From the NCBI GenBank assembly GCA_944389925.1, contig CALXOD010000030.1, positions 1 to 51,155 on the forward strand: a stretch of DNA of 51,155 nt, given 5' to 3'. The position numbers and the translations under genes are program-made. Below the pieces are notes generated by a model. That model ran no database searches. It saw only the letters and a program-made list of their open reading frames with translations, and was not told where the DNA came from. Origin of the DNA: an uncultured Victivallaceae bacterium. GTDB taxonomy: Bacteria; Verrucomicrobiota; Lentisphaeria; Victivallales; Victivallaceae. Within the stretch, counting starts at the first letter, position 1. Each line of letters opens with the position of its first letter. Of this stretch, positions 15,601 through 30,818 are shown in pieces.

Positions 15601-15884
15601 GCGGTTTGACCACCGAGAGTGGGCAGCAGCGCATCCGGACGTTCACGGCGGATGATCTCATGAAGACTGTCCAGCGTCAATGGTTCGATATAGGTGCGGT
15701 CGGCAAATTCCGGATCGGTCATGACCGTAGCCGGATTGCTGTTGACCAGCACTACTTCAAACCCTTCCTGCTTGAGTACCTTGCAGGCCTGCACGCCGGA
15801 ATAATCGAATTCACAACCCTGACCGATGACGATCGGACCGGATCCGATCAGTAGAATTTTTCTGATATCAGTGCGTTTCGGCAT
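12654..15884 (-). CDS. carB: Carbamoyl-phosphate synthase large subunit
   Basis: The 1,076-residue product matches the usual length of the large subunit, which makes carbamoyl phosphate from bicarbonate, ammonia (channelled from CarA) and two ATP. Both ATP-grasp halves are visible: [21 protein letters not shown] near the N-terminus and its duplicate [21 protein letters not shown] near residue 560. Each is followed by [12 protein letters not shown]-type segments and [18 protein letters not shown] / [18 protein letters not shown]. The C-terminal allosteric MGS-like domain ([33 protein letters not shown]) is present. The ATG at 15884 lies inside the end of pyrG (17-bp overlap), with AAGGAG just upstream. 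It is the last gene of the glutamine-use operon, separated from carA by pyrG, which is an uncommon order. Confidence 0.97.
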
Positions 15885-17493
15885 GATGGGAATGCTCCTT
15901 GTCCTTGTACTGCAGCGCGGCCTCAATCAATCCTGCAAACAGCGGATGCGGCGAGGCCGGCTGCGATTTGAATTCCGGATGAAACTGGCAGCCGATGAAG
16001 AAGGGGTGATCCGCCATCTCCAGAATTTCCACCAGCCGCCCGTCGGGCGAAGTCCCGGCAATGTGCAGCGCCCCGCCGGAAAACTCCTCGCGAAAAAGAT
16101 TGTTGAATTCATAACGGTGTCGATGTCGTTCGGCGATTTCGTCCGCGCCGTACAAAGCTCGAACCCGGCTGTCCGGTGCCAGCATGCAGGGGAAACTCCC
16201 CAGGCGCATTGTACCGCCTTTGGCAGTGATGCCGCGTTGTTCCGGCATCAGATCGATGACGGCATGACGGGTTTCCGGATTCCATTCGGCGCTGTCCGCA
16301 TCCTCCCAGTCGAGCACGTGCCGGGCATATTCAATCGCCATGCACTGCATGCCAAGACAGATACCGAGCAGCGGCACGCGCCGGGTACGGGCATATTCAA
16401 TGGCTTTGATTTTTCCGGGAACGCCGCGCGATCCGAAGCCGCCCGGAACCACGATGCCGTCCAGATCATCCAATGCCACGTCGCCCGCTTCCAGCGCTTC
16501 AGCTTCGACGGAAACGACTTCCACCCGGGCGCGCCGGGCAATCCCCGCGTGAGACAGCGCCTCGAAAACACTTTTGTAGGCATCCCGGCAGGAGGTATAT
16601 TTCCCAACCAGTCCGATCCGGCAGGAACGGCGAGGATGTACCGCAGCTTCAACAATGCGATTCCAGTCCGTCAGGTCCAGTTCACGTTCCGGCAGCTCCA
16701 GCAGCCGCAGTACTTTGACGTCCAGCTGCTGCGCCGCCAGTTCCGGCGGCACTTCGTAAATCGAATGGCGGACATCGCGTTCCTCGATGACCCGATCCCG
16801 GGGAACATTGCAGAAAAGCGCCAGTTTTTTACCGTGTTCCTCGGTCATCGGCACTTCGGTACGGCAGACCAGAATGTCCGGGAAAATTCCGATGTTGCGC
16901 AGAATCCCCACCGACTGCTGTGACGGCTTGGTTTTCAATTCTCCTGCCGCCCGGATGTAGGGCAGCAGCGTCAGATGCAGGAAGACCGCATTGCCCTCCC
17001 CCGCCTCGTGTTTGAACTGCCGTGCAGCCTCCAGAAATGGCAGCGATTCAATATCTCCGGCGGTGCCGCCGATTTCAGTCATGACGATATCCACGTCCGG
17101 CGCGGCGGCGGAACGGATGGCAGCCTTGATTTCATCGGTCACATGGGGAATCACCTGAACCGTACCGCCGAGATAACCGCCCGCCCGCTCCCGGGCGATG
17201 ACGTTGCTGTAAATTCTCCCGGAGGTGTAGTTGCTCGCCCGGGTGCAGGTAATTCCGGCAAACCTTTCATAATGCCCGAGATCCAGATCGGTTTCCGCAC
17301 CGTCATCGGTCACATAGAGTTCACCGTGCTGATACGGTGACATGGTACCGGGATCGACATTGAGATACGGGTCGAGTTTCTGCATGGCAACGCGATAGCC
17401 GCGCCGTTTAAGCAGCATTGCCAGACTGGCGGCGGTGATGCCTTTGCCGAGGCTGGAAACCACACCGCCGGTGATGAAAATAAATTTACTCAT
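15868..17493 (-). CDS. pyrG: CTP synthase
   Basis: A 541-residue enzyme that aminates UTP to CTP using glutamine. The N-terminal synthetase domain starts [17 protein letters not shown], with the P-loop and [21 protein letters not shown]-type sequence (here GELYV). The C-terminal class I glutaminase has its nucleophile in GICLGMQCM (Cys near residue 379) and the His/Glu pair in CQFHPEFKS. The ATG at 17493 begins at the conserved [10 protein letters not shown]. Codons upstream in the open frame have no homology. It follows carA by 25 bp and overlaps carB, so all three should be on one transcript. The C-terminal tail is His-rich (HSHHAETH). Confidence 0.97.
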
Positions 17494-17518
17494 AACCTGT
17501 GCGTCTCCCTGTAATACT

Positions 17519-18604
17519 TCAGCGTTCCAGCATGTCCCGGAACTCCCGGAAAATCGGTGTGGCGTCGTGTGGTCCCGGCGCCGCCTCCGGATGATACTGT
17601 ACCGCGAACATCGGCTCATGACGGTGGCGAATGCCTTCCACCGTCTGATCGTTTAAATTCAGATGCGTCACCTCCAATACACCGGGAATCCGGTCGGCAT
17701 CCAGTGCGAAATTGTGATTCTGACTGGTGATGGCAACTGCTCCGTTCCGCAGGTCCTGCACCGGGTGATTGCAGCCGTGATGACCGAATTTCAGCCGGCC
17801 GCAACTGCCGCCGGCGGCGATCCCGAGAATCTGGTGTCCGAGGCAAATCCCCATAACCGGGACTTTACCAATCAGAGTCCGGGCAGCGTCGATCGCTCCC
17901 TTGACTGCGGCGGGGTCGGCGGGACCGTTGGAGAGGAACACCCCGTCCGGATGCAGCGCCAACACTTCTGCGGCGGAGGTTCCGGCCGGCACCACCGTCA
18001 AACGTAAATTCTGCGCCGCCAGCTGCCGGAGAATGTTGTATTTGACGCCGAAATCGTAGACGACAACCCGCAGGTCCCCGGAATCGTTCCACTCATACGG
18101 TTCGGTCACGCTGACCCGGGTCGCGTAATCCTGGCCGTCCAGCCCACACCATTCGTTGGCACGGCGCACGGCCTCCTCCGGCGTGATATCCGCCTCGGAA
18201 CCGTGCAGAAACGCCTTTTGTGTGCCGTCGGAACGCAGCCGGATCACCAGTCGTCGCGTATCCACCCCGGCAAGTGCCGGAACACCGCCGGCGCTCAGCA
18301 GTTCGGCCAGAGACCCCGTGGACCGGAAGTTCGACGGTTCGTTGAGTTCCTGCACCACCAGTCCGTTCAGAAAAAGGCCCCGGGACTCCATGTCCTCGGG
18401 GTTGCATCCGTAATTGCCGACTTCCGCTGTGGTAAGCGTGACAAATTGTCCGGCGTAGGAGGGATCGGATACGATCTCCTGGTACCCCGTCATGCCGGTA
18501 TTGAACACCACTTCGCCCACCGCATCCACGGCAGCCCCTCGGGAATCGCCATAGAAAATGCTTCCGTCCGCCAATGCCAGAAAATGTTTTTTCAACTTTC
18601 TCAT
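17519..18604 (-). CDS. carA: Carbamoyl-phosphate synthase small (glutaminase) subunit
   Basis: A 361-residue glutamine amidotransferase subunit that releases ammonia for CarB. The N-terminal half contains LADGSIFYGDSRG, GEVVFNTGMTGYQEIVSDPSYAGQ and NYGCNPEDMES. The class I glutaminase domain has GICLGHQILG with the nucleophile Cys near residue 254, and the His/Glu dyad in VQYHPEAAPGPHD. Its ATG directly follows the purF stop codon with no gap. GGAGG inside the last purF codons serves as ribosome site, so the two genes are translationally coupled. Confidence 0.97.
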   Translation of the reverse strand: MRKLKKHFLALADGSIFYGDSRGAAVDAVGEVVFNTGMTGYQEIVSDPSYAGQFVTLTTAEVGNYGCNPEDMESRGLFLNGLVVQELNEPSNFRSTGSLAELLSAGGVPALAGVDTRRLVIRLRSDGTQKAFLHGSEADITPEEAVRRANEWCGLDGQDYATRVSVTEPYEWNDSGDLRVVVYDFGVKYNILRQLAAQNLRLTVVPAGTSAAEVLALHPDGVFLSNGPADPAAVKGAIDAARTLIGKVPVMGICLGHQILGIAAGGSCGRLKFGHHGCNHPVQDLRNGAVAITSQNHNFALDADRIPGVLEVTHLNLNDQTVEGIRHRHEPMFAVQYHPEAAPGPHDATPIFREFRDMLER

Positions 18605-20326
18605 TCAATATGCCCTCCGGTTCACGGCGTCGACGTAATGGATCAACGCCTGATTGACCACCCGGTTGCCACCGGGTGTCGGATAATCTCCGGAAAAATA
18701 CCAGTCGCCAGTGTGATCCGGGCAAGCTCGACGCAAATTTTCCGGCGTCTGAAACACCACTCGCAGTTCCGCCCGTAATCCCTCCGGACGCAGCCGCCGT
18801 CCGATTTCTTCACACAGTTCCCCGAAACCGATCGCGTCGTAAATCGGTTTCACCCGGTTCTGCATCTGATCGTCCGGCAGCAGCAGGTCACTCCGGGCTG
18901 CCGCCACACATTCCTGAAAGAGGCCATCCAGATGTTTGCGGCGAACCAATGCCACTGCGGCTTCGAACGCCACCAGTTCCCCCAGACTGGCCATATCGAT
19001 CCCGTATCCGTCCGGATAGCAGACCGGCGGCGCCGCCGAAGCCACCACGATCCGTTTCGGCCCGAGCCGGTCGAGAATTCGAAGAATGCAATGTCGCATG
19101 GTATTGCCCCGGACAATCGAATCATCCAGTACCACCAGGTTGTCCGCACCCGGACGAACCAGGCCGTAAACCACGTCGTACACATGCATCGACAACTCCT
19201 TACGACATTCCGCATCGGAAATGAAGGTGCGGAATCCCACATCCTTGACCGCGATCTGGCCGAACCGCAGTGTCCGGCCCTGATGTCGGGCGACCAGTTC
19301 CTCCAGCATGCCGAGAAAACAGGTGTACGCTGTATTGGGAATATAGGAGAAAAAACTGTTGTCCCAGTCTCCATCTACCGCGTCGAGCACCGGATCAGTC
19401 AGAAACTTTCCCATTTTCCGCCGTTCCCGCTGAATGTCGGCGTCGTTGCCGCGTGAAAAATAGATACGTTCAAAAACACAGCGCCGCGGCGGCTCCGGCT
19501 CGAGACACTGTTCCAGACGTGTCCTGCCGTCCCGATCGATCAGCAGCAATGCCCCCGGAGGCACTTCCTCCACCTCGGCACTGGCCAGATCAAACGCCGT
19601 CTGAATGGCCGGACGTTCCGAAGCGGTTACCACTACATCGTCGTTAAAATACCAGTAGCCCGGTCGGATTCCCCGCGGGTCGCGCAGCGCGAAACATTCC
19701 CCGTTGCCCAGCATGCCGCACAGGAAATACCCCCCATCCCATTCCGGCGCGGCCTCCCGAAAGAGCCGGACCAGATCGGGCGAACGTTCGCCACCGTCGT
19801 TCGGACCGAGTAGTTTTTCCAGACGGTGTCCGATCATGGCCAGCAGGATATGGCTGTCCAAAGCATCGGAAAGGTGGTGGCCGGAAGCCGTCAATCGGGC
19901 GAATAGTGCGGACGTATTGGTCAAGTTGAAATTGCCCGCCAGCAGAATGGTCCGATTACGGCAGGGGCTTTCCCGAAGGACCGGGTGACATGCAGCCAGC
20001 GAGCGCCGTCCGAATGTACCGTAACGCAGATGGCCCAGCAGTACCTCCCCGTCCCATGATTCATCGTCAATCCGGGAAAGGATATCGGTGAGAGCGGTGG
20101 AACTGTTGGATTTTTCCAGCCGGTAATAGGACTCTCCGGGAACTGCGTCCAGTTTCAAAGCAGCCATGCCGGCACCATCCTGGCCCCGATTATGCTGTTT
20201 TTCCAGCAACAGCGCCAGTTTTCGACTGCCGAAATGGCGCATGCCGTAACGTGCCGCATAATAGTCGGCGTTCCGGCGCAGCCGCAGCAATGTCACGCCG
20301 CATTCGTGTTTGAGTTCATCCGACAT
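18605..20326 (-). CDS. purF: Amidophosphoribosyltransferase (PurF), long variant
   Basis: A 573-residue class II glutamine amidotransferase fused to a phosphoribosyltransferase domain. It makes 5-phosphoribosylamine, the first step of purine synthesis. The N-terminal nucleophile would be Cys9, exposed after removal of an eight-residue propeptide (MSDELKHE), as in Bacillus-type PurF. QHNRGQDGAGMA replaces the common QHRGQESAGI. Further motifs are HLRYGTFGRRS, AGNFNLTN, the C-terminal PRPP loop VVLDDSIVRGNT and the AAPPVCYPDGYGIDM segment. Insertions make it longer than the usual 460-510 residues, resembling the Bacteroidetes-type variant. Several Cys residues occur, but no clear Fe-S ligand set is seen. 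The ATG at 20326 has GGAG 8 nt upstream. It lies 13 bp after glnN and abuts carA. Confidence 0.9.
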   Translation of the reverse strand: MSDELKHECGVTLLRLRRNADYYAARYGMRHFGSRKLALLLEKQHNRGQDGAGMAALKLDAVPGESYYRLEKSNSSTALTDILSRIDDESWDGEVLLGHLRYGTFGRRSLAACHPVLRESPCRNRTILLAGNFNLTNTSALFARLTASGHHLSDALDSHILLAMIGHRLEKLLGPNDGGERSPDLVRLFREAAPEWDGGYFLCGMLGNGECFALRDPRGIRPGYWYFNDDVVVTASERPAIQTAFDLASAEVEEVPPGALLLIDRDGRTRLEQCLEPEPPRRCVFERIYFSRGNDADIQRERRKMGKFLTDPVLDAVDGDWDNSFFSYIPNTAYTCFLGMLEELVARHQGRTLRFGQIAVKDVGFRTFISDAECRKELSMHVYDVVYGLVRPGADNLVVLDDSIVRGNTMRHCILRILDRLGPKRIVVASAAPPVCYPDGYGIDMASLGELVAFEAAVALVRRKHLDGLFQECVAAARSDLLLPDDQMQNRVKPIYDAIGFGELCEEIGRRLRPEGLRAELRVVFQTPENLRRACPDHTGDWYFSGDYPTPGGNRVVNQALIHYVDAVNRRAY

Positions 20327-20339
20327 GCAAAACTCCATT

Positions 20340-22475
20340 TCAATAGACAAACAGCATTTCCCGGTACTTGGGCAGCGGCCAGCACTTGTCATCCAGCTGG
20401 CTTTCAAGTCGGTCGACTACCTGCCGCAAAGCCACGGTCGCTTCCAGGATACATTCATGTTTTTCCGGAAGCATGGCTTCCAGGTGATCGCAGGCGGCGT
20501 ACAGTTGATCAAGCAGATCGCCCAGAAGTTCCGCAGAGCGGCACAGTCCGGAAACGCCGTGTTTTGCACCGACCTTTTCGGCCGTAGCCAGTGCCGTATT
20601 GCGGCGGTGAAATTCATCCACGGCAACCGGAAGAATCATGCTCCGGGCGATTTCCAGCGCAACCTGGCCCTCGATCCGGACCTTGCGATGATATTCCTCC
20701 AGAAAGACCTCGTAACGCGATGCCAGCTCCGGCCGGGAAAAGACGCCATAGCGGATGAATAGTTCCTGATTGGCCGGATCACGCAGCGGCTGCAGCGCTT
20801 CCATGGTCGTGCGCAGGTTGGGCAGGCCGCGCCGGGCGGCCTCGGCACACCAGGCGTCGGTATAATTGTCGCCGTTGAAGATAATCCGCTTATGGCTGGA
20901 AATGATCGTGCGCAGCACCTGCTGCAACCCTTCGTTGAAAGTCTCCTTCGGCAATTTTTCCAGTTTTTCGGAAATTGCATCCATGGCTTCCGCGATGATG
21001 GTATTGAGCACCATGTTGACCCCGGCGCAAGACTGGCTGGAACCGGCGGCACGGAATTCGAATTTGTTACCGGTAAAGGCGAAAGGGCTGGTCCGATTAC
21101 GGTCGGTTGCATCCCGGGGCAGCGGAGGAAGCGTATCCACGCCGATCCGTATGGCCCCCGGAGCATGGCTGGTCTGCGGCGCGCCTTTTTCCAGCTGTTC
21201 GATAATTTCGGTCAGCTGCTCCCCGAGGAAAATAGAAACGATGGCCGGTGGCGCCTCATTGGCACCGAGCCGGTGGTCATTGCCCACCGAGGCGGTGGCG
21301 GAACGCAGCAGGTCGGCGTGCCGGTCTACCGCGCTGATCACAGCACAGAGCACAGTGAGAAAAATAGCATTGCGATGCGGATCGTCACCGGGTTCCAGCA
21401 AATTGTGACGACCATAGGAGACGGACCAGTTATTGTGTTTACCGGAGCCGTTGATGCCGGCAAACGGTTTTTCGTGAAGCAGGCAGACCAGTCCGTGGCG
21501 ATCGGCTACCTGCCGGAGCAGTTCCATAACCAGCATATTGTGGTCTACCGCCAGATTGAGCTCCTCGAAGACCGGAGCAATTTCAAACTGTGCGGGTGCC
21601 ACTTCGTTATGCCGGGTTTTCGCCGGGATCCCCAGGCGCCACAATTCCTCTTCCACATCGGACATGAACGCCAGTATCCGCGGTTTGATCGCCCCGAAGT
21701 AATGGTCTTCCAGCTGCTGATGCCGGGCCGGAGGCGCTCCGAACAGCGTCCGCCCGGTCTGCACCAGATCCGGACGATGCAGATAAAAATTCTTGTCAAT
21801 CAGAAAATATTCCTGTTCCGGCCCCAGTGTCACCCGGGCCCGGGCAGCCGGCTGACCGAAACAGTCCATCAGCCGCCGTACAGACTTCTGCAACGCCTGG
21901 ATGGAACGCAACAGCGGCGTCTTCTTGTCCAGCGCTTCGCCGGTATAGGAGCAGAAGGCCGTCGGAATGCAGAGCGTCGCCCCGTTGGCGTGGCGCTTGA
22001 TGAAGGCTGGACTGGTCGGATCCCAGGCGGTATAGCCCCGCGCCTCAAATGTGCAACGCAGTCCGCCCGAAGGGAAACTGGATGCGTCCGGTTCGCCGAC
22101 GATCAGATTTTTTCCAGAAAACGCCATAATCGCCTGCCCTTCTCCTGCCGGCTCCAGAAAGGCATCATGCTTTTCCGCCGTACCACCGTTCAACGGCTGA
22201 AACCAGTGGGTAAAATGGGTCGCACCACGCTCCATCGCCCAGCTCTTCATGGCGTGGGCGACATCTCCGGCGATGGCGGGATCGAGCGGCTGCCCATCAC
22301 GAATCGTCGCCAGCAGCTTGGCCGCCGTCTCTTTGGGCAGACAACGACACATGGCGGCGGTGTTGAACACGTCGTCTCCATAAAAGTCAAGACTGAACGG
22401 TTTCCCCGAGCATGGAGGTGGTACCGGACGGGAGGCGACGGCATTGACGGCATGAAGGCGATTGCAGTTACTCAT
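20340..22475 (-). CDS. glnN: Glutamine synthetase type III
   Basis: A 711-residue enzyme of the GSIII class (about 700 residues, against about 450 for GSI), which makes glutamine from glutamate, ammonia and ATP. Typical blocks are [31 protein letters not shown] (metal and glutamate site), [36 protein letters not shown] (ATP/active site) and the late [23 protein letters not shown]. The ATG at 22475 has AAGGAG 8 nt upstream. The open frame continues far upstream through the leader RNA without homology. Upstream are a roughly 250-nt structured leader and a sigma-54-type promoter. It heads a co-directional run with purF, carA, pyrG and carB, so synthesis of glutamine and three pathways that consume it are encoded together. 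The divergent gltBD complete the GS-GOGAT cycle. Confidence 0.96.
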
Positions 22476-22727
22476 CTTTCTGGCTCCTTGTTTCCCCGGA
22501 AAGTTGCTTACCCTTCGGCCACGGGCCTCGGGTACCTGATTTGCAGGACCGCTACTTGCCGGGGGGTCCCGCTCTCCGGTGTTCCGTACGGCTCCGCCGG
22601 ACTCACACCTGCGAGCAAAGTTGTTTGTTTTTATTAAATGGTTACACCGTTTAGCAATTTTTCCCGGCCTCGGGTAGCTGCTCTGCAGGACCGCTACAAA
22701 ATACGCTTTGCAGTTCCCGAGTTTCTG
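22476..22727 (-). ncRNA. Structured 5' leader of glnN, candidate cis-regulatory RNA
   Basis: The predicted sigma-54 start (about 22727) gives a leader of about 250 nt. It holds two 32-nt direct copies, A at 22666-22697 and B at 22524-22555, identical at 29 of 32 positions. In RNA sense each is GUAGCGGUCCUGC...UACCCGAGGCC. Copy A folds as GUAG/CUAC plus CUGC/GCAG with a bulge CGGUC. Copy B folds as GUA/UAC plus CCUG/CAGG with the same bulge, so the differing bases keep pairing. Copy A is closed by CUCGGG/CCCGAG (22716-22721 with 22669-22674). Copy B lies inside an outer helix CCGGAGAG/CUUUCCGG (22572-22579 with 22496-22503) ending 7 nt before the ribosome site. Between them, 22581-22608 forms a further hairpin (GGUGU/ACACC, UCCG/CGGA). 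No family was recognised with certainty. The ligand and mechanism are unknown. Confidence 0.6.
22524..22697 (-). repeat. Two-copy 32-nt direct repeat in the glnN leader
   Basis: Copies at 22524-22555 and 22666-22697 differ at only three positions and are 142 bp apart start to start. Two copies and the intervening structured sequence argue for duplicated RNA modules, not for a CRISPR or an insertion-sequence footprint. Confidence 0.8.
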
Positions 22728-22736
22728 ACGAGAGAA

Positions 22737-22755
22737 AAGCATTTCGCGTGCCAAA
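22737..22755 (-). promoter_or_regulatory. Sigma-54-type promoter for glnN operon
   Basis: Read leftward the sequence is TTGGCACGCGAAATGCTTT. The GG (22752-22751) and GC (22740-22739) have the required 10-nt spacing, and TGGCACG matches the -24 consensus exactly. The predicted start is near 22727, directly before the first base-paired element of the leader. Confidence 0.8.
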
Positions 22756-22990: not shown

Positions 22991-23007
22991 TTGGCACAGA
23001 ATCTGCT
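22991..23007 (+). promoter_or_regulatory. Sigma-54-type promoter for gltBD operon
   Basis: TTGGCACAGAATCTGCT has GG at 22993-22994 and GC at 23005-23006 with 10 nt between them, and a perfect TTGGCAC. The predicted start is near 23018, giving a 33-nt leader before gltB. Confidence 0.8.
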
Positions 23008-23050
23008 TCCTCAAAAAAAACGAACCCATAGACGACAGGAGATAAAATCC

Positions 23051-26000
23051 ATGGAACAGCAACATCAACAGCTGCCCCCGACAGGTTTTCCGACAGAATT
23101 CGGATTGTATCATTCCGAGCAGGAACATGACGCCTGCGGCGTCGGTCTTGTTGCCGACCTGAATCGCCATCCGTCCCGCCGTATCGTGGAAATGGGATTG
23201 AAAATATTGTGCAAACTCATGCATCGCGGCGCTGCCGGCAGCGACCCAGATACCGGAGACGGAGCAGGAGTTCTGTTATCCATCCCCGATACGTTCTTTC
23301 GCGCCCGTGTTCCCTTCACTCTCCCGGAAGCAGGTCGCTATGCCGTAGCCATGCTTTTCGACGGCCGGCAGGAAAGCGCCGCCATAGAGGCGGAAATCCG
23401 TTCCCGCGGTCTGAACTTTCTCGGCTGGCGGGATGTTCCCGTCAATCCCGATGCTGTCGGTGCTGCCGCCAGAAGGACACAACCATTGATTCGTCAATGT
23501 TTTGCCGGTATGGGAGAAACCGCGGACCCGAAAGAATTTGAACGACGTCTTTTGGTGGTACGCCGCGTACTGGAAAAACGTTTTCCGCACATAACGTTCT
23601 GCAGTTTCTCCCGTACCGCAATCGTTTACAAGGGATTGATGCTGGCTACCCAGCTGGAAAAGTTCTATCCGGATCTGGCAGACCCCCTTTTTGCCGCCTC
23701 GCTGGTGTTGGTACATCAGCGATTCAGTACCAATACGTTCCCCTCCTGGCCGCTGGCCCACCCGTTCCGCTACCTCGCCCACAACGGCGAAATCAATACC
23801 ATCAAGGGCAATCTCAATCAGCAACGTTCCCGCGAACCTCTGCTGGACAGTCCGCTTTTCGGGGAGGACCTGGCTGAATGTCTGCCGTTGATCGACGCTC
23901 CCGTCAGCGACTCCGCCGCACTGGATCGGATGCTGGAGCTGCTGGTCCTGTCCGGGCGGAGTCTGCCGCACGCCATGCTGATGCTGATGCCGCAGGCATG
24001 GGGAGCCAAATATCATCTGGGACGGGATGTCCGGGCTTTCTTTGAATACCATTCTGCCCTGATGGAACCCTGGGATGGTCCGGCTGCGGTGGCGTTTTCA
24101 GACGGTGTCAATGCCGGGGCCATGCTGGACCGCAACGGGTTGCGGCCAGCTCGTTATGCGTTGACCGATGATGGTATTTTCGTTTTGGCTTCGGAGAGTG
24201 GCGTATTGGACATCCCGGTGCAGCGGGTTGTCCGCCGCGGCCGTCTCCGTCCCGGAGAAATGATCTGGTGCGATTTGGAACACCACCGGCTGATCTATGA
24301 CCGGGAAATCAAAAACACTCTGGCCCGGCAGGCCCCCTACCGCCGCTGGGTGGAAGAAAACCGTATTTCGGTTCATGGCCTCTTCGATTCGGTGACACCG
24401 CCTCCCCCGATGGAGGATTTGCAACGGCATCTGCGACTCTTCCACTGGAGCCGTGAAGATGTCGAAGTCATCGTCAAACCAATGGCGCAAACCGGTTATG
24501 AACCGATCGGCTCCATGGGAAACGACAGTGCTCTGGCAGTTTTTTCCCGCCATCATCCGCTGCTTTACAATTATTTCAAACAACTGTTCGCCCAGGTAAC
24601 CAATCCGCCGATCGATCCAATCCGCGAAGAGCTGGTTATGAGCCTGCTCACTTATATCGGAAACCACGGAAACATTCTGGAGGAAACGCCTGAACATGCC
24701 CGGCTGATCAAACTCCCCCGTCCCGTTCTGACGGATGAGGATCTGCAGCGATTGACGCATGTGCACGTGGACGGATTCCGCTCAGCCACGCTGACGATGG
24801 GATGGCGTGGAGATTTGCACGATGCCTTGCTTCGGCTAACCCGTCGGGCTTTGGAAGAGGTTCGTGCCGGAAGAAGAATTCTCATTCTTTCGGACCGTGC
24901 TCTGCCACCGGGTGAGGATCCGATCCCGGCCCTGCTGGCGCTGGGAGCGGTTCATCGCGCACTGGTCGAATCCGGACTCCGCCCCCCGGTCGGATTGATC
25001 ATTCAATCCGGAGAAGTTCGGGAGGTGATGCATTACAGTTTGCTGCTGGGGTTCGGCGCAACCGCGGTGCATCCGTATCTGGCGTTGCAGTGCGTCCGTC
25101 AGCTCTGCGCCGATGGGGAATTGCCTCTGGACCCGGCCCGGGCGGCGGAAAATTATATCCACGCGGTGGACAAGGGGCTGTTGAAAATCATGTCCAAAAT
25201 GGGCATTTCCACCCTGCGCAGTTATCGGTCGGCCCAGATGTTTGAAGCACTGGGACTGGATCGAAGCGTCATTGACGCCTATTTTCCGGGAACCGCTTCC
25301 CGTATCGGGGGGCTCCGCCTGGAAGACATCGCTCGGGAAACTGACGAACGCTGTCGGGAGGCCGGCAAAGGGGAACTTCTTGAATCTGGAGGGGAATACG
25401 CCTGGCGACGGGATGGCGAAGAGCATCTGTGGACCCCGCGCTCACTGGCGCTTTTTCGTCAGGCAGTCCAGCAGAATGACCCGGAAGCCTATCGCCGTTA
25501 TGCCGAAGAAATCAATCAGCAGTCGGAGCGGCTCTGTACCCTGCGTGGTCTCTTTCGTTTCCGCAAAACCACTCCGATCAGGCTGAATGAGGTCGAAAGC
25601 GTCTCCGACATAGTGCATCATTTCGTTTCCGGTGCCATGTCGCTCGGTTCACTCAGTCCGGAAGCACATGAGGCGATCGCCGTTGCCATGAACCGCCTCG
25701 GCGGCATGAGCAACTGCGGCGAAGGCGGCGAGGATCCCCTCCGGGCCACGCCCGGACCCGCCGGGGAAAACCGGGCCAGCGCCATCCGGCAGGTTGCCAG
25801 CGGCCGCTTCGGCGTCACAGCGGATTATCTTGCCGGTGCCCGGGAATTGCAGATCAAGATGGCACAGGGCGCCAAGCCCGGTGAAGGCGGTCAGCTCCCC
25901 GGCTACAAGGTGGATGCAGAAATCGCCCGGGTTCGGCATTCAACGCCGGGTGTGACGCTGATTTCGCCGCCGCCGCACCATGATATTTACTCAATCGAGG

Positions 26001-27493
26001 ATCTGGCGCAGCTGATTTCCGACCTGCGCAACGTCAATCCGGAGGCACGGATCTCCGTCAAGCTGGTGTCCGAAGTCGGCGTGGGCACCATCGCCGCCGG
26101 CGTGGCCAAAGCAGATGCCGATGTCATTCTGATCAGCGGTCATGACGGCGGTACCGGCGCTTCACCGCTGACCAGCATCAAACATGCGGGCATGCCCTGG
26201 GAACTGGGACTGGCGGAAGCCCAACAGACGCTGGTACTGAATCGTTTGCGCGGCCGGGTACGACTCCAGGTGGACGGCCAGTTGAAAACCGGCCGTGACG
26301 TGGTTATAGGTGCTCTGCTCGGAGCGGAGGAATTCGGATTCGCCACCACGCTTCTCGTGTGTCTCGGCTGCGTCATGATGCGCCGGTGTCATGCCAATTC
26401 CTGCCCGGTCGGCGTGGCAACGCAGGATCCGGAGTTGCGCCGCTGTTTTCGCGGCAAACCGGAGTATATTGAAAACTTCCTGCTGTTACTCGCCGCCGAA
26501 GTTCGGGAAATCTTGGCTTCGCTGGGATTGCGCTCCCTGAGTGAGGCGGTCGGCCGCAGCGACCTGCTCGAAACCAGCGAAGCAGAAGCCTTCTTCAAAA
26601 CCAGAAATCTTGACTTCAGTCGAATTTTTGAACGAGCAGACCATGATGTCGTCCGCTTTGAAAAAGCCGTGCCGCGCCTCTCCGGATTTGACGCCCGGCT
26701 CCTGATTCCCGCACTGCGGGAGACGCTGAAAAACGGCATGCCCGCCCAGCTGGAACTTCCCATTGCCAATGTCGACCGCAGTTGCGGTGCCGGGCTTTCG
26801 GGAGAAATTGCCCGCCGTTTCGGTGCCCGGGGCCTGCCGGAAGGAACCATACGCATCCGTTTGAATGGCTGCGCCGGTCAGAGTTTCGGAGCGTTCCTCG
26901 CTCCCGGCGTCACCCTGGAACTTGCCGGAGACGCCAACGACTTCGTCGGCAAGGGACTTTCCGGAGGCACCATCATCATTCATCCGCCTGCGGAAGCTGG
27001 ATTCGATCCTGCAGCGAATGTCATTGCCGGCAATGTCGTCGGATATGGCGCGACTTCCGGAAAAATCTTCCTCAACGGTCAGGCCGGAGAGCGCTTCGCC
27101 ATCCGTAACAGCGGTTGTACCATGGTGCTCGAAGGCGGCGGAGATCATGGCTGCGAATACATGACGGGAGGTCGCGTCGCAGTACTCGGCCCGGTAGGAG
27201 TGAATTTCGGAGCAGGCATGTCCGGCGGCATCGCCTATGTTTACGATTGTGACAATGACTTCGATCTCAAATGTAATCTGGATACAGTCGACCTTGAATC
27301 CATTCTTCCCGGCAGCGATGATGAAAAGGAACTGACGGCTCTGATCCGGGCCCATCTCGCCGCGACCGGCAGCCCCCGGGCGGCGCAGATTCTGAAGGAC
27401 TGGAATGCCGAACGCAGTCGCTTCGTCAAGGTGTGTCCTGTTGAATACCGCAAACAGATTGCCGCCCGGACCGCTCTGACTGGTGCCCGTTGA
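23051..27493 (+). CDS. gltB: Glutamate synthase large subunit
   Basis: A 1,480-residue GOGAT large subunit that converts glutamine and 2-oxoglutarate to two glutamates. The N-terminal class II glutaminase has its nucleophile at Cys29 in HDACGVGLVADL, so a 28-residue propeptide is expected. The FMN/2-oxoglutarate synthase domain shows GGMSNCGEGGEDP, GAKPGEGGQLPGYKV and SGHDGGTGASP. The 3Fe-4S ligands are in CLGCVMMRRCHANSCPVG near residues 1103-1120. The C-terminal GXGXG domain has GDHGCEYMTGGRVAVLGPVGVNFGAGMSGG. The ATG at 23051 has AGGAG 9 nt upstream. Earlier in-frame starts lie within the promoter. It is followed 33 bp later by gltD, so the enzyme is probably the NAD(P)H-dependent alpha-beta form. 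Confidence 0.97.
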   Translation: MEQQHQQLPPTGFPTEFGLYHSEQEHDACGVGLVADLNRHPSRRIVEMGLKILCKLMHRGAAGSDPDTGDGAGVLLSIPDTFFRARVPFTLPEAGRYAVAMLFDGRQESAAIEAEIRSRGLNFLGWRDVPVNPDAVGAAARRTQPLIRQCFAGMGETADPKEFERRLLVVRRVLEKRFPHITFCSFSRTAIVYKGLMLATQLEKFYPDLADPLFAASLVLVHQRFSTNTFPSWPLAHPFRYLAHNGEINTIKGNLNQQRSREPLLDSPLFGEDLAECLPLIDAPVSDSAALDRMLELLVLSGRSLPHAMLMLMPQAWGAKYHLGRDVRAFFEYHSALMEPWDGPAAVAFSDGVNAGAMLDRNGLRPARYALTDDGIFVLASESGVLDIPVQRVVRRGRLRPGEMIWCDLEHHRLIYDREIKNTLARQAPYRRWVEENRISVHGLFDSVTPPPPMEDLQRHLRLFHWSREDVEVIVKPMAQTGYEPIGSMGNDSALAVFSRHHPLLYNYFKQLFAQVTNPPIDPIREELVMSLLTYIGNHGNILEETPEHARLIKLPRPVLTDEDLQRLTHVHVDGFRSATLTMGWRGDLHDALLRLTRRALEEVRAGRRILILSDRALPPGEDPIPALLALGAVHRALVESGLRPPVGLIIQSGEVREVMHYSLLLGFGATAVHPYLALQCVRQLCADGELPLDPARAAENYIHAVDKGLLKIMSKMGISTLRSYRSAQMFEALGLDRSVIDAYFPGTASRIGGLRLEDIARETDERCREAGKGELLESGGEYAWRRDGEEHLWTPRSLALFRQAVQQNDPEAYRRYAEEINQQSERLCTLRGLFRFRKTTPIRLNEVESVSDIVHHFVSGAMSLGSLSPEAHEAIAVAMNRLGGMSNCGEGGEDPLRATPGPAGENRASAIRQVASGRFGVTADYLAGARELQIKMAQGAKPGEGGQLPGYKVDAEIARVRHSTPGVTLISPPPHHDIYSIEDLAQLISDLRNVNPEARISVKLVSEVGVGTIAAGVAKADADVILISGHDGGTGASPLTSIKHAGMPWELGLAEAQQTLVLNRLRGRVRLQVDGQLKTGRDVVIGALLGAEEFGFATTLLVCLGCVMMRRCHANSCPVGVATQDPELRRCFRGKPEYIENFLLLLAAEVREILASLGLRSLSEAVGRSDLLETSEAEAFFKTRNLDFSRIFERADHDVVRFEKAVPRLSGFDARLLIPALRETLKNGMPAQLELPIANVDRSCGAGLSGEIARRFGARGLPEGTIRIRLNGCAGQSFGAFLAPGVTLELAGDANDFVGKGLSGGTIIIHPPAEAGFDPAANVIAGNVVGYGATSGKIFLNGQAGERFAIRNSGCTMVLEGGGDHGCEYMTGGRVAVLGPVGVNFGAGMSGGIAYVYDCDNDFDLKCNLDTVDLESILPGSDDEKELTALIRAHLAATGSPRAAQILKDWNAERSRFVKVCPVEYRKQIAARTALTGAR

Positions 27494-27526
27494 AAAACAT
27501 TCGCCTCATCAGGAGAAGGAATCATC

Positions 27527-28837
27527 ATGGACAAAAATTTTCTGCATCTTTCCCGTGTGTCCGATCTATACCGTCCGGTTGCAGAACGGATCACCGATTT
27601 TCGGGAAGTCGAACGTCGTCTCTCCCCCGAAGAAATCGCCCGGCAGGTTTCACGCTGCATGCATTGCGGTATTCCCTTCTGCCATGGCAGTGGCTGTCCG
27701 CTCGGCAATCTCATTCCCGACATTCACGAACAGGTCCGCCGCGGCAACCTGCAAAATGCCTGGAACCTGCTCGCCTCAACCAGTCCGATGCCGGAATTTA
27801 CCGCCCGCGTCTGCCCGGCGCTCTGCGAAGGCAGCTGTACGGCGCAACTGGTCAGCGAATCGGTCATGATCCGGCAGATCGAAAAATATGTCGTCGAATC
27901 CGCCTTTGCCCATCACTGGGTCCAACCGCCCCGACCACGCTGTGAAAACGGCCGTTCCATTGCCATCGTCGGTTCCGGTCCGGCGGGATTGACCGCCGCC
28001 ATCCGGCTGCGGCAGGCCGGCTGCCGGGTAACGGTTTTCGAACAACGCCCGCTACCGGGAGGCTTGTTGCGATACGGAATCCCCGCATTCAAACTGGACC
28101 GTGCAGTTATCGACCGCCGGATCGAACTTCTGAAAGATGCCGGTATCGTTTTCCGCTGTGATACGACGATAGGACGTGATATTTCCCGGGAATTTCTGCT
28201 TCGTACCCACGATGCAGTCCTTCTGGCGACGGGTACCCCTTCCCCCCGTGACCTGGCAGTGGAAAACCGCTCACTTCCCGGCATTGAATTTGCGCTTGAT
28301 TTTCTCAATGGAACTACTTCCGCCGCCGGAAAAAACGTGGTCATCATCGGCGGCGGCGACACCGGAGCTGATTGCGTCGGCATGGCCAATCGCCAGGGAG
28401 CGTCCAACATTACTCAGATTGAAATCATGCCGGAACCACCCCGGGAGCGTTCGTTCTCCACCCCCTGGCCGCAATGGCCTTATTTGCGGCGCACCTCCTC
28501 CAGTCATCAGGAAGGGGCGATCCGTCGCTGGGGTGTGCAGACCGTCCGTTTCCTCGAACGGAACGGGACAGTCGGCGCGGTGGAAATACTGCCGGTGGAC
28601 TGGGAATTCTCCCCGAATGGCCGCCCGTTGCATTTCACCCCGCGTATCGGGGAAAAAGAAATTCTCGCAGCAGATCTGGTACTGCTGGCAATGGGATTTC
28701 TCAAACCTGAATCTATAGAGGCAGTGCCCCCTCTTTTCGTCGTCGGAGATGCTGCCAATGGCCCGTCGCTGGTCGTCCGGGCGATGGCGGACGCGATTCG
28801 AATCAGTCAAAAAGTACAGCAATTTCTGGAGGTTTAA
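27527..28837 (+). CDS. gltD: Glutamate synthase small subunit
   Basis: A 436-residue flavoprotein that passes electrons from NAD(P)H to GltB. The N-terminal Fe-S segment has CMHCGIPFCHGSGCPLGN and RVCPALCEGSC. The FAD-binding loop is VGSGPAGLTAA, with the family motif GGLLRYGIPAFKLD after it. The NAD(P)H-binding loop is IIGGGDTGADCVG, and the C-terminal segment FVVGDAANGPSLVVRAMADA closes the FAD site. It is about 35 residues shorter than the E. coli protein, but all motifs are present. AGGAGAAGGA lies before the ATG. The dapF start follows 3 bp after the stop, with GGAGG inside the gltD end. Confidence 0.96.
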   Translation: MDKNFLHLSRVSDLYRPVAERITDFREVERRLSPEEIARQVSRCMHCGIPFCHGSGCPLGNLIPDIHEQVRRGNLQNAWNLLASTSPMPEFTARVCPALCEGSCTAQLVSESVMIRQIEKYVVESAFAHHWVQPPRPRCENGRSIAIVGSGPAGLTAAIRLRQAGCRVTVFEQRPLPGGLLRYGIPAFKLDRAVIDRRIELLKDAGIVFRCDTTIGRDISREFLLRTHDAVLLATGTPSPRDLAVENRSLPGIEFALDFLNGTTSAAGKNVVIIGGGDTGADCVGMANRQGASNITQIEIMPEPPRERSFSTPWPQWPYLRRTSSSHQEGAIRRWGVQTVRFLERNGTVGAVEILPVDWEFSPNGRPLHFTPRIGEKEILAADLVLLAMGFLKPESIEAVPPLFVVGDAANGPSLVVRAMADAIRISQKVQQFLEV

Positions 28838-28840
28838 GCA

Positions 28841-29614
28841 ATGCGTTTTATCAAATATCACGGATTGGGGAATGATTTCATTTTCGTCAACGCCGACGAA
28901 GAACAGGGAATTGATTTTCGGGGAATCGCCCGGGCCGCCTGCGATCGGCATTTCGGCATCGGCGCGGACGGCGTGGTCACCCTGCGGCATTTCGGCGGCA
29001 ATCGTTTTGAAATGCGAATTTATAACTCCGACGGCACCGAAACAGAAATGTGCGGCAACGCCACCCGGTGTGCCGCCGCCTGCATCGTTGCCGAACAGCT
29101 TGCGCCGGGACCGGAATTCGAATTATCCACCCTTGCCGGTCTCATCCGGCCTGCCGTGCTCCCGGACGGCCGGATCCGGGTTGACATGGGCGAACCTCGA
29201 CCGGGTGACGTGGAAATTACCCTTAATCGCTTCACCGGCACTGACGTCTCCATGGGCAATCCACATTTTGTGGTGTTCGTCCCGGACATCACCGCCATTC
29301 ACCTGGAAAAGGACGGACCGGACCTGGAACATCATCCTCACTTTCCCAATAAAAGCAACATCGAATTCGTACAGATTTTGAACCGGAATCTTGTACGTAT
29401 GCGGGTCTGGGAACGCGGTTGCGGCGTCACCCTCGCCTGCGGAACCGGCAGCAGCGCCATCTGCGTAGCCGGCGTCCTCACCGGACGTACCGACCGGCAC
29501 ATCACGGTCCGGCTGGACGGTGGTGAACTGGACATCGAATGGAACGAAAAAGACAATCATGTTTATATGACCGGACCGGCGACACGGGTTTTCACGGGCG
29601 ACTATCCGGCTTGA
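28841..29614 (+). CDS. dapF: Diaminopimelate epimerase
   Basis: A 257-residue PLP-independent epimerase that converts LL- to meso-diaminopimelate for lysine and peptidoglycan. It begins FIKYHGLGNDFIFV. The two catalytic Cys lie in EMCGNATRC and LACGTGSSAI. The first motif has Ala where most family members have Gly (CGNGxRC), a mild deviation that keeps the Cys. It is translationally coupled to gltD, and dapL follows after 19 bp. DapL makes its substrate. Confidence 0.95.
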   Translation: MRFIKYHGLGNDFIFVNADEEQGIDFRGIARAACDRHFGIGADGVVTLRHFGGNRFEMRIYNSDGTETEMCGNATRCAAACIVAEQLAPGPEFELSTLAGLIRPAVLPDGRIRVDMGEPRPGDVEITLNRFTGTDVSMGNPHFVVFVPDITAIHLEKDGPDLEHHPHFPNKSNIEFVQILNRNLVRMRVWERGCGVTLACGTGSSAICVAGVLTGRTDRHITVRLDGGELDIEWNEKDNHVYMTGPATRVFTGDYPA

Positions 29615-29633
29615 ACCGCAAAGGAGAATTCTT

Positions 29634-30818
29634 ATGTTTACCACCAATCCCTTCTACCAGGAGCTTTCTGAAAATTATCTCTTTGCCGAAATTGCCCGGA
29701 AAGTCGACGCCTGCCGCCGGACCGAACCGGAGGCGAAAATCATCCGTCTCGGTATCGGCGATGTCACTTTGCCGCTGGCTCCCGCCGTCATCGCCGCGCT
29801 GCACCGGGCAGTCGATGAAATGGCGGCGGCGGAAACCTTCCGCGGTTACGGCCCGGAACAGGGCTATGATTTTCTTCTTGAAGCCATCCGCGAACACGAT
29901 TACCTCCGGCGAGGCATCGCCATTGCCGCAGATGAAATCTTCGTCAGCGACGGATCCAAATGCGACGTCGCCAACATTCAGGAACTCTTCGGCAGCAACT
30001 GCCGGATCGCCATCTGCGATCCGGTTTATCCGGTCTACCGGGACAGCAACCTGATGGCCGGCCGCAGTGCACAATTGCAATATCTGCCCTGTGTGGAAGC
30101 CAACGGCTTTCTGCCGGAACCGCCGCGCACGCCGGTGGACGTAATTTACCTGTGTTCGCCGAACAACCCGACCGGCGCAGTGTTTTCGCGGGAACAGCTG
30201 ACCGAATGGGTGGCATACGCCCGACGCGTCCGGGCACTGCTGCTCTTCGATTCCGCCTACGAAGCCTACATCCGCGACCCCGCCCTGCCCCGGAGCATTT
30301 ATGAAATTCCCGGGGCGGAAGAGGTCGCCATCGAATTCCGGTCTTTTTCCAAAACCGCCGGATTTACCGGATTGCGCTGCGCCTATTGTGTGGTGCCGCG
30401 CGCTCTCCCGGGACGGCTGAATGCGCTCTGGAGAAGACGGCAAACCACCAAATTCAACGGAGTATCCTATCCGGTTCAACGTGCGGCAGAGGCGGTCTAC
30501 TCGGAGCCGGGACAACGGCAGATCGCCGCTCAGATCGACTATTACCTGAACAACGCCCGGGAAATCCGTACCGGGCTTCTGGCCGCCGGCATGACGGTTT
30601 TCGGCGGCGAACATTCGCCATATGTATGGTGGAAGTTACCGGTTGCCATGAGTTCAATGGCATTTTTCGACCAGTTGCTTCACGAGTGTCATGTCGTCGG
30701 CACTCCCGGTTCTGGATTCGGGGATTGCGGGGAAGGTTATTTTCGATTGACCGGATTTGGCAGCTGCGATGCAACCCGGGAGGCGGTCAAACGAATCACC
30801 GACCGATATTTGCAATAA
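29634..30818 (+). CDS. dapL: LL-diaminopimelate aminotransferase
   Basis: A 394-residue class I/II PLP aminotransferase that makes LL-diaminopimelate from tetrahydrodipicolinate with glutamate as amino donor. This bypasses the acylated intermediates. The family N-terminus [20 protein letters not shown] is present. Further motifs are [62 protein letters not shown] and the PLP lysine in [17 protein letters not shown]. DapL is typical of PVC bacteria, plants and some archaea. It is in one operon with gltBD, which provide its glutamate. GGAG lies 8 nt before the ATG. Confidence 0.95.

Follow-up and report, generated by a model that had tools for sequence, protein, structure and literature searches.

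Small structured repeats dispersed between genes are already known as a kind of bacterial element, and the described families nearest to the one considered here are ERIC, CIR, Correia/NEMIS, and the REPs. ERIC elements are reported to change mRNA stability in Yersinia in an orientation-dependent way (PMC2229807, PMC10969869). The CIR elements of Caulobacter are intergenic and consist of two structured arms and a linker; the mechanism of their mobility is unknown (PMC2229807). The Correia/NEMIS elements of Neisseria are small repeats often found immediately 5′ of genes, and their folded transcripts are cut by RNase III (PMC10969869, PMC2229807).

The locus compared with these families is the leader of glnN in an uncultured Victivallaceae bacterium, analyzed within a window of 51,155 nucleotides (the whole stretch of contig). 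The leader probably contains a member of an undescribed, Victivallaceae-specific family of non-autonomous mobile repeats of ~130 nt, with a conserved two-domain RNA-type fold, carried by both chromosomes and phages. glnN shares a strand with carA-type and pyrG-type glutamine amidotransferase genes (15868-22475, minus strand) and is back to back with gltB/gltD-type genes, dapF, and an aminotransferase gene (22991-30818, plus strand); the two sides make up a nitrogen-assimilation cluster. An open reading frame between glnN and carA is purF-like by eye, with no Pfam match at E ≤ 1e-10, and a second sigma-54-type site, TGGCACAGAATCTGC (22992-23006, plus strand), precedes the divergent gltB-type gene. 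A second type III glutamine synthetase of this genome (G000:C61:7413-9548) is 62% identical to glnN. The leader has the following features.

20340..22475, minus strand: glnN, type III glutamine synthetase (PF12437 3.8e-75, PF18318, PF00120)
22475, minus strand: ATG of glnN, from the sequence
22484..22489, minus strand: Shine-Dalgarno sequence AAGGAG, from the sequence; unpaired in the predicted whole-leader fold
22739..22753, minus strand: putative sigma-54-type promoter of glnN, TGGCACGCGAAATGC, from the sequence and the sites of relatives
22697..22666, minus strand: 32-mer copy A, three mismatches to copy B
22555..22524, minus strand: 32-mer copy B, three mismatches to copy A
22721 (start), minus strand: CUCGGG, from the sequence
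22579..22572, minus strand: CCGGAGAG, from the sequence
22503..22496, minus strand: CUUUCCGG, from the sequence
22660..22727, minus strand: copy A, the truncated and refolded rest of a second, upstream module; 32-nt core at 22666-22697

A first-pass annotation of the sequence had described two 32-nt copies with three differences, each folding into its own stem. Both copies are where it had placed them, and no third site with fewer than 10 mismatches to the pair occurs anywhere in the window. The stem holds for copy B; copy A is a truncated, refolded module remnant. The 32-mer itself is not the repeated unit that had been proposed, being instead the 3′ half of a module of ~130 nt. The broader claim of a structured element 3′ of the sigma-54-type promoter is supported, with the tandem now read as one intact and one truncated module. 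Copy A is not called as a module by the covariance model built from the repeat (R1), and it is also kept in a congener (G002). Other loci of the genus repeat this arrangement, with a degenerate copy, an A-rich spacer, and an intact copy in 5′-to-3′ order.

The intact module is made up of two separate domains, laid out as follows.

22493..22622, minus strand: intact module of ~130 nt (copy B and its 5′ half), from the R1 match and the MFE structure
22568..22619, minus strand: Domain 1, from the MFE structure, with two-sided changes in P2 and P3
22619-22613 with 22574-22568, minus strand: helix P1 of Domain 1, from the MFE structure
22609-22605 with 22582-22578, minus strand: helix P2 of Domain 1, with the P3 hairpin nested within it
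22494..22564, minus strand: Domain 2, from the MFE structure, with two-sided changes in P4, P6, and P7
22564-22554 with 22504-22494, minus strand: helix P4 of Domain 2, from the MFE structure
22547-22535, minus strand: variable hairpin P6 of Domain 2, which also holds P5
22534-22509, minus strand: P7 of Domain 2, from the MFE structure

The R1 match to 22493..22622 scores 116.6 bits over the full length of the model (1-135). In a MAFFT alignment of 13 full modules, P1 has the consensus CYUUNCUC/GAGNGGGG, P2 is GGUGY/RCACC, P3 is a hairpin, and P4 is CCCCGAAAAGU/ACUUUUCGGGG, followed by a short P5. A three-way junction then carries the variable hairpin P6 and the conserved P7 (CCC-GA-GGCC CGU GGCC-GAA-GGG); in copies from this genus, GTAG precedes the P6 hairpin. 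The MFE structure of the window copy is the same as the comparative fold. The module (22622..22493) has an MFE of -59.9 kcal/mol and a z-score of -2.54, with 5 of 200 shuffled sequences folding equally well, and the fold of the 260-nt stretch with both copies has a z-score of -1.78.

In the 13-sequence MAFFT alignment, 24 of 46 pairs show two-sided changes, and the covariation score is 0.279 against 0.114 for shuffled alignments, none of 500 reaching the observed value; sliding the partners out of register drops the score to 0.05-0.08. Covariation is likewise very strong in 100 copies, where two-sided changes appear in 42 of 46 pairs, a number taken from a model-fitted alignment and therefore biased toward the structure. 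An outer helix between CCGGAGAG and CUUUCCGG had also been proposed around copy B. It can pair in 94% of cells across the 13 copies and shows zero covariation, while the covarying partner of CUUUCCGGGG is CCCCGGCAAG, in helix P4; the outer helix is a possible alternative state and nothing beyond that. On the strand read here there are more G-U than A-C cells, 275 to 174, or 271 to 61 when two always-mismatched columns are excluded, so this is taken as the folding strand. This one-strand tolerance of G-U pairs fits RNA best and is also compatible with single-stranded DNA of that strand.

The module is absent from Rfam 15, in support of the suggestion of a new element. At gathering scores Rfam gave no match in the window, at E ≤ 10 there was a single chance match elsewhere and nothing on the module, and the other module copies had no match at E ≤ 1. 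A resemblance to the glycine aptamer had been noted near the 3′ end, and no glycine-riboswitch match was found in the Rfam scans. A search of its own genome with the leader recovered two further tandem copies, upstream of a cysK-type gene. Of 78 genomes of this family, to which Victivallis vadensis also belongs, 33 have the module according to R1, at 1-28 copies per genome, with seven in this genome. R1 found none in other families of the order and none elsewhere in the phylum in a sample of 388 genomes. When named genomes were scanned for an exact pattern, the only matches were in V. vadensis DSM 14823, other Victivallis, and metagenome-assembled genomes of Lentisphaeria/Victivallaceae; a few copies are on viral contigs.

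The leader was originally put forward as a cooperative tandem sensor of glutamine or of nitrogen status. In favor of this, two congeneric species have the module 3′ of a sigma-54-type promoter and 5′ of glnN, and both retain copy A. The comparison of glnN leaders speaks against it. Conservation across related glnN leaders, the absence of which had been named in advance as grounds for giving up the sensor, is absent: the module is present at only 2 of 30 fetched glnN loci, those of this species and the congener G002, and at 14 other glnN loci a plain leader without the module follows a sigma-54-type site positioned 58-116 nt upstream of the ATG. The sigma-54-type site is at -278 from the ATG here and in G002, which, against 58-116 nt in the relatives, indicates that ~160-220 nt were gained between promoter and ribosome site. 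Copy A, a truncated remnant, goes unrecognized by R1, and the module also lies at many unrelated genes, in antisense, and beside tRNAs. A sensor specific to glnN is thus extremely unlikely. Selection in place at glnN was considered and set aside: four differences between G000 and G002 are compensatory, and they could reflect gene conversion or re-insertion, since the G002 glnN copy is 99% identical to another copy in G002.

On the 3′ side, 33 of 57 arrays adjoin the start of a gene on the same strand, 17 a converging gene's stop codon, and 6 a tRNA; one array has no neighboring feature there. The stop-facing arrays are mostly within 6 nt of the opposing stop codon, and those beside tRNAs occur in both orientations. 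The adjoining feature is no more than 20 nt away for about 48 of 56 right ends, compared with about 7 of 52 left ends; both counts are approximate, being based on simple codon-usage gene calls, with SD-guided starts for the right ends. The usual spacing on the right is 14-20 nt before an ATG with an intervening SD, 1-6 nt to an opposing stop codon, or 3-9 nt to a tRNA, with the 3′ (GGGGA) end docked against the gene edge. The modules 3-9 nt from a tRNA (L115, L121, L047, L049, L042, and L108) adjoin genes for tRNA-Ala, -Trp, -Arg, and -Thr in sense and tRNA-Gln in antisense. Chromosomal downstream genes encode type III glutamine synthetase, a cysteine-synthase-type PLP enzyme (cysK), alcohol dehydrogenase, GH10 xylanase, inositol phosphatase, ThiC, and IlvD, and those in phages encode terminase, capsid-protease, and baseplate proteins; no functional theme is common to them.

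These neighborhoods also bear on a broader sensor, a riboswitch for a widely used signal that would stand before many genes as the c-di-GMP and SAM aptamers do, with the glnN and cysK copies sensing a metabolite. The elaborate conserved fold, the conserved unpaired bases, the tandem copies, and the 33 arrays upstream of a gene on the same strand would all suit a riboswitch. Against it stand the 17 stop-facing arrays and the 6 that abut tRNAs in both orientations; the module is missing from most glnN leaders and polymorphic in close phages, and the mixed downstream genes and antisense sites do not amount to a conserved place before functionally related genes. An expression platform is also lacking at glnN, as there is no terminator and the SD is free. 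This kind of riboswitch is therefore highly improbable, although a leader effect of a general kind on expression may still apply and is compatible with the data.

Variants of the module extend the picture in some lineages. Four variant modules of V. vadensis (L079 1623-1759 and 2071-2207, L100, and L101) are inside a larger repeat with long common flanks, ~200 nt downstream of different genes. A second module type with a longer insert, GTATCATCCGYCGCGCAAGCGC...GATGACAAGCCCGACTTGTCCTCCGCAGCC, is found in G034 and G026 (L082-L087, L093, and L098), often directly 5′ of a normal module. A conserved small hairpin, GATGGTATGTTAATACCATC, then GAAATATTAACAA, is located about 40 nt 5′ of the module in L082-L097 and L106; because this hairpin precedes many copies, the element may reach further 5′ in Victivallis and G020.

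The reading of the module as a mobile repeat draws on several signs of movement. A pair of G002 copies that stand at different genes share 99% identity. One phage (L169) is filled at a site that is empty in L186 (92-96% identical) and in the related L170, where the flanks are joined directly, and the L169 module with its flanks is identical to sequence in genome G008. At a second phage site, L167 is filled and L168 empty, with AACTCAAA on either side of the module. Phage relatives at the baseplate genes were considered as a further empty site and rejected as too distant (48-54% identity). The module is thus multi-copy, noncoding, and intergenic, with filled and empty sites, as expected of a small non-autonomous dispersed repeat in the broad sense. 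In G072, the module is inside a miniature transposon of ~437 bp that has imperfect inverted repeats of ~24 bp, duplications of 8 bp, and ends resembling those of IS256. The other 20 copies of this transposon examined either have a shorter and different arm in place of the module or have no arm; the family (L064-L072, L242-L261) has 71 end matches in G072, and a minority of its copies carry the module.

Several observations count against the mobile-element reading, namely the missing terminal inverted repeats, the few and unequal direct repeats, and candidate mobilizers that do not track the copies. End-to-end matches within the module are no better than in shuffled sequence. Direct repeats of 8-18 bp around the module are unequal and clear at few sites, with little general excess across 47 arrays, and no general target-site duplication was seen beyond those few sites. 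A RAYT/Y1 transposase as the mobilizer does not agree with copy number, Y1 transposases being absent from G000, G020, G026, G072, G081, and G085. Reverse transcriptase was likewise rejected, with RVT_1 unmatched in G000, G001, G002, G034, G101, G072, G081, and G085. In addition, random insertion does not account for how closely the 3′ end docks to gene edges.

The module might also be a repeat at the DNA level only, REP- or MITE-like, whose hairpins matter in transposition as single-stranded DNA and have no role as RNA. Its occurrence in both orientations relative to genes and its carriage by a transposon in G072 are in keeping with this, but terminal inverted repeats and a GTAG/CGTC tag at the ends are missing, there is no link to Y1 transposases, and only one strand tolerates G-U pairs. 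We consider a purely DNA-level repeat unlikely.

The preferred reading is a mobile-element family with a fold under selection, most likely at the RNA level; the covarying fold, the dispersal, the restriction to one family, and the difference between filled and empty sites are established. At glnN, an ancestor of the genus would have received a module downstream of a sigma-54 promoter already in place and upstream of the ribosome site; a second, truncated module is upstream of the intact one. Judging from the position of the promoter, transcripts would include the module, and the glnN mRNA would begin with a long folded leader, its final helix stopping a few bases short of the unpaired SD. The fold would then alter mRNA stability or translation. 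With no terminator and a free SD, any effect at glnN should be at one of these levels, for which ERIC and Correia elements are precedents (PMC2229807, PMC10969869). Movement would depend on an enzyme acting in trans.

A more specific proposal is a mobile structured RNA that spreads through RNA in a SINE-like manner and also works as a portable translation gate through the opening of P4. The uniform 3′ end, variable 5′ end, unequal flanking duplications, and RNA-selected fold are the features cited for the SINE-like route. For the gate, the 3′ strand of P4 (GGGGA/GGAGG) would coincide with the ribosome site of the next gene in several phage copies, and a conserved competing pairing, CCGGAGAG/CUUUYCGG, could open P4 and thereby control that gene. 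In phage copies L080, L081, and L088, this strand is a few nucleotides before the start codon, where it may itself serve as the SD and is a candidate for SD sequestration. The combined proposal is speculative and probably not correct as a whole.

The family adds a well-resolved RNA-type fold, present in hosts and phages, to the few bacterial dispersed repeats with clearly selected structure. Docking by one end together with many natural insertions offers a ready test of portable folded leaders and of what moves them. The locus also carries a caution: when a single genome shows a folded leader before an attractive metabolic gene, that leader can turn out to be a repeat and not a sensor.

No earlier description of the module in Victivallis or Lentisphaerae was found in Rfam or in the open-access literature searched. 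The glycine riboswitch (RF00504) is alike in the short strings GGAGAG and GCCGAAGG...GCAA and in tandem layout, but its helices differ, and Rfam gives no match. MITEs have terminal inverted repeats, which are absent from the module and present in the IS256-like host element of G072. The GTAG REPs mobilized by RAYT are short palindromic extragenic repeats, and GTAG is also present in the module copies of this genus; it is at the module end in 0 of 90 copies, however, and the distribution of Y1 transposases does not follow that of the module. Correia elements differ in having terminal inverted repeats, where the module has none. CIR shares the intergenic layout of two arms and a linker but comes from an unrelated clade, and the GANTC motif characteristic of CIR is in only 6 of 90 module copies. 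ERIC/IRU of enterobacteria (127 bp) is alike in size, in multi-copy intergenic spread, and in an RNA fold next to genes. ERIC is a single palindrome closed by pairing of its ends, whereas the module has two separate domains with a three-way junction and lacks terminal repeats, and no sequence relation was found. Among these systems, the Victivallaceae module stands out by having a two-domain fold with a three-way junction, by lacking terminal repeats, by occurring in phages, and by docking to gene edges on one side.
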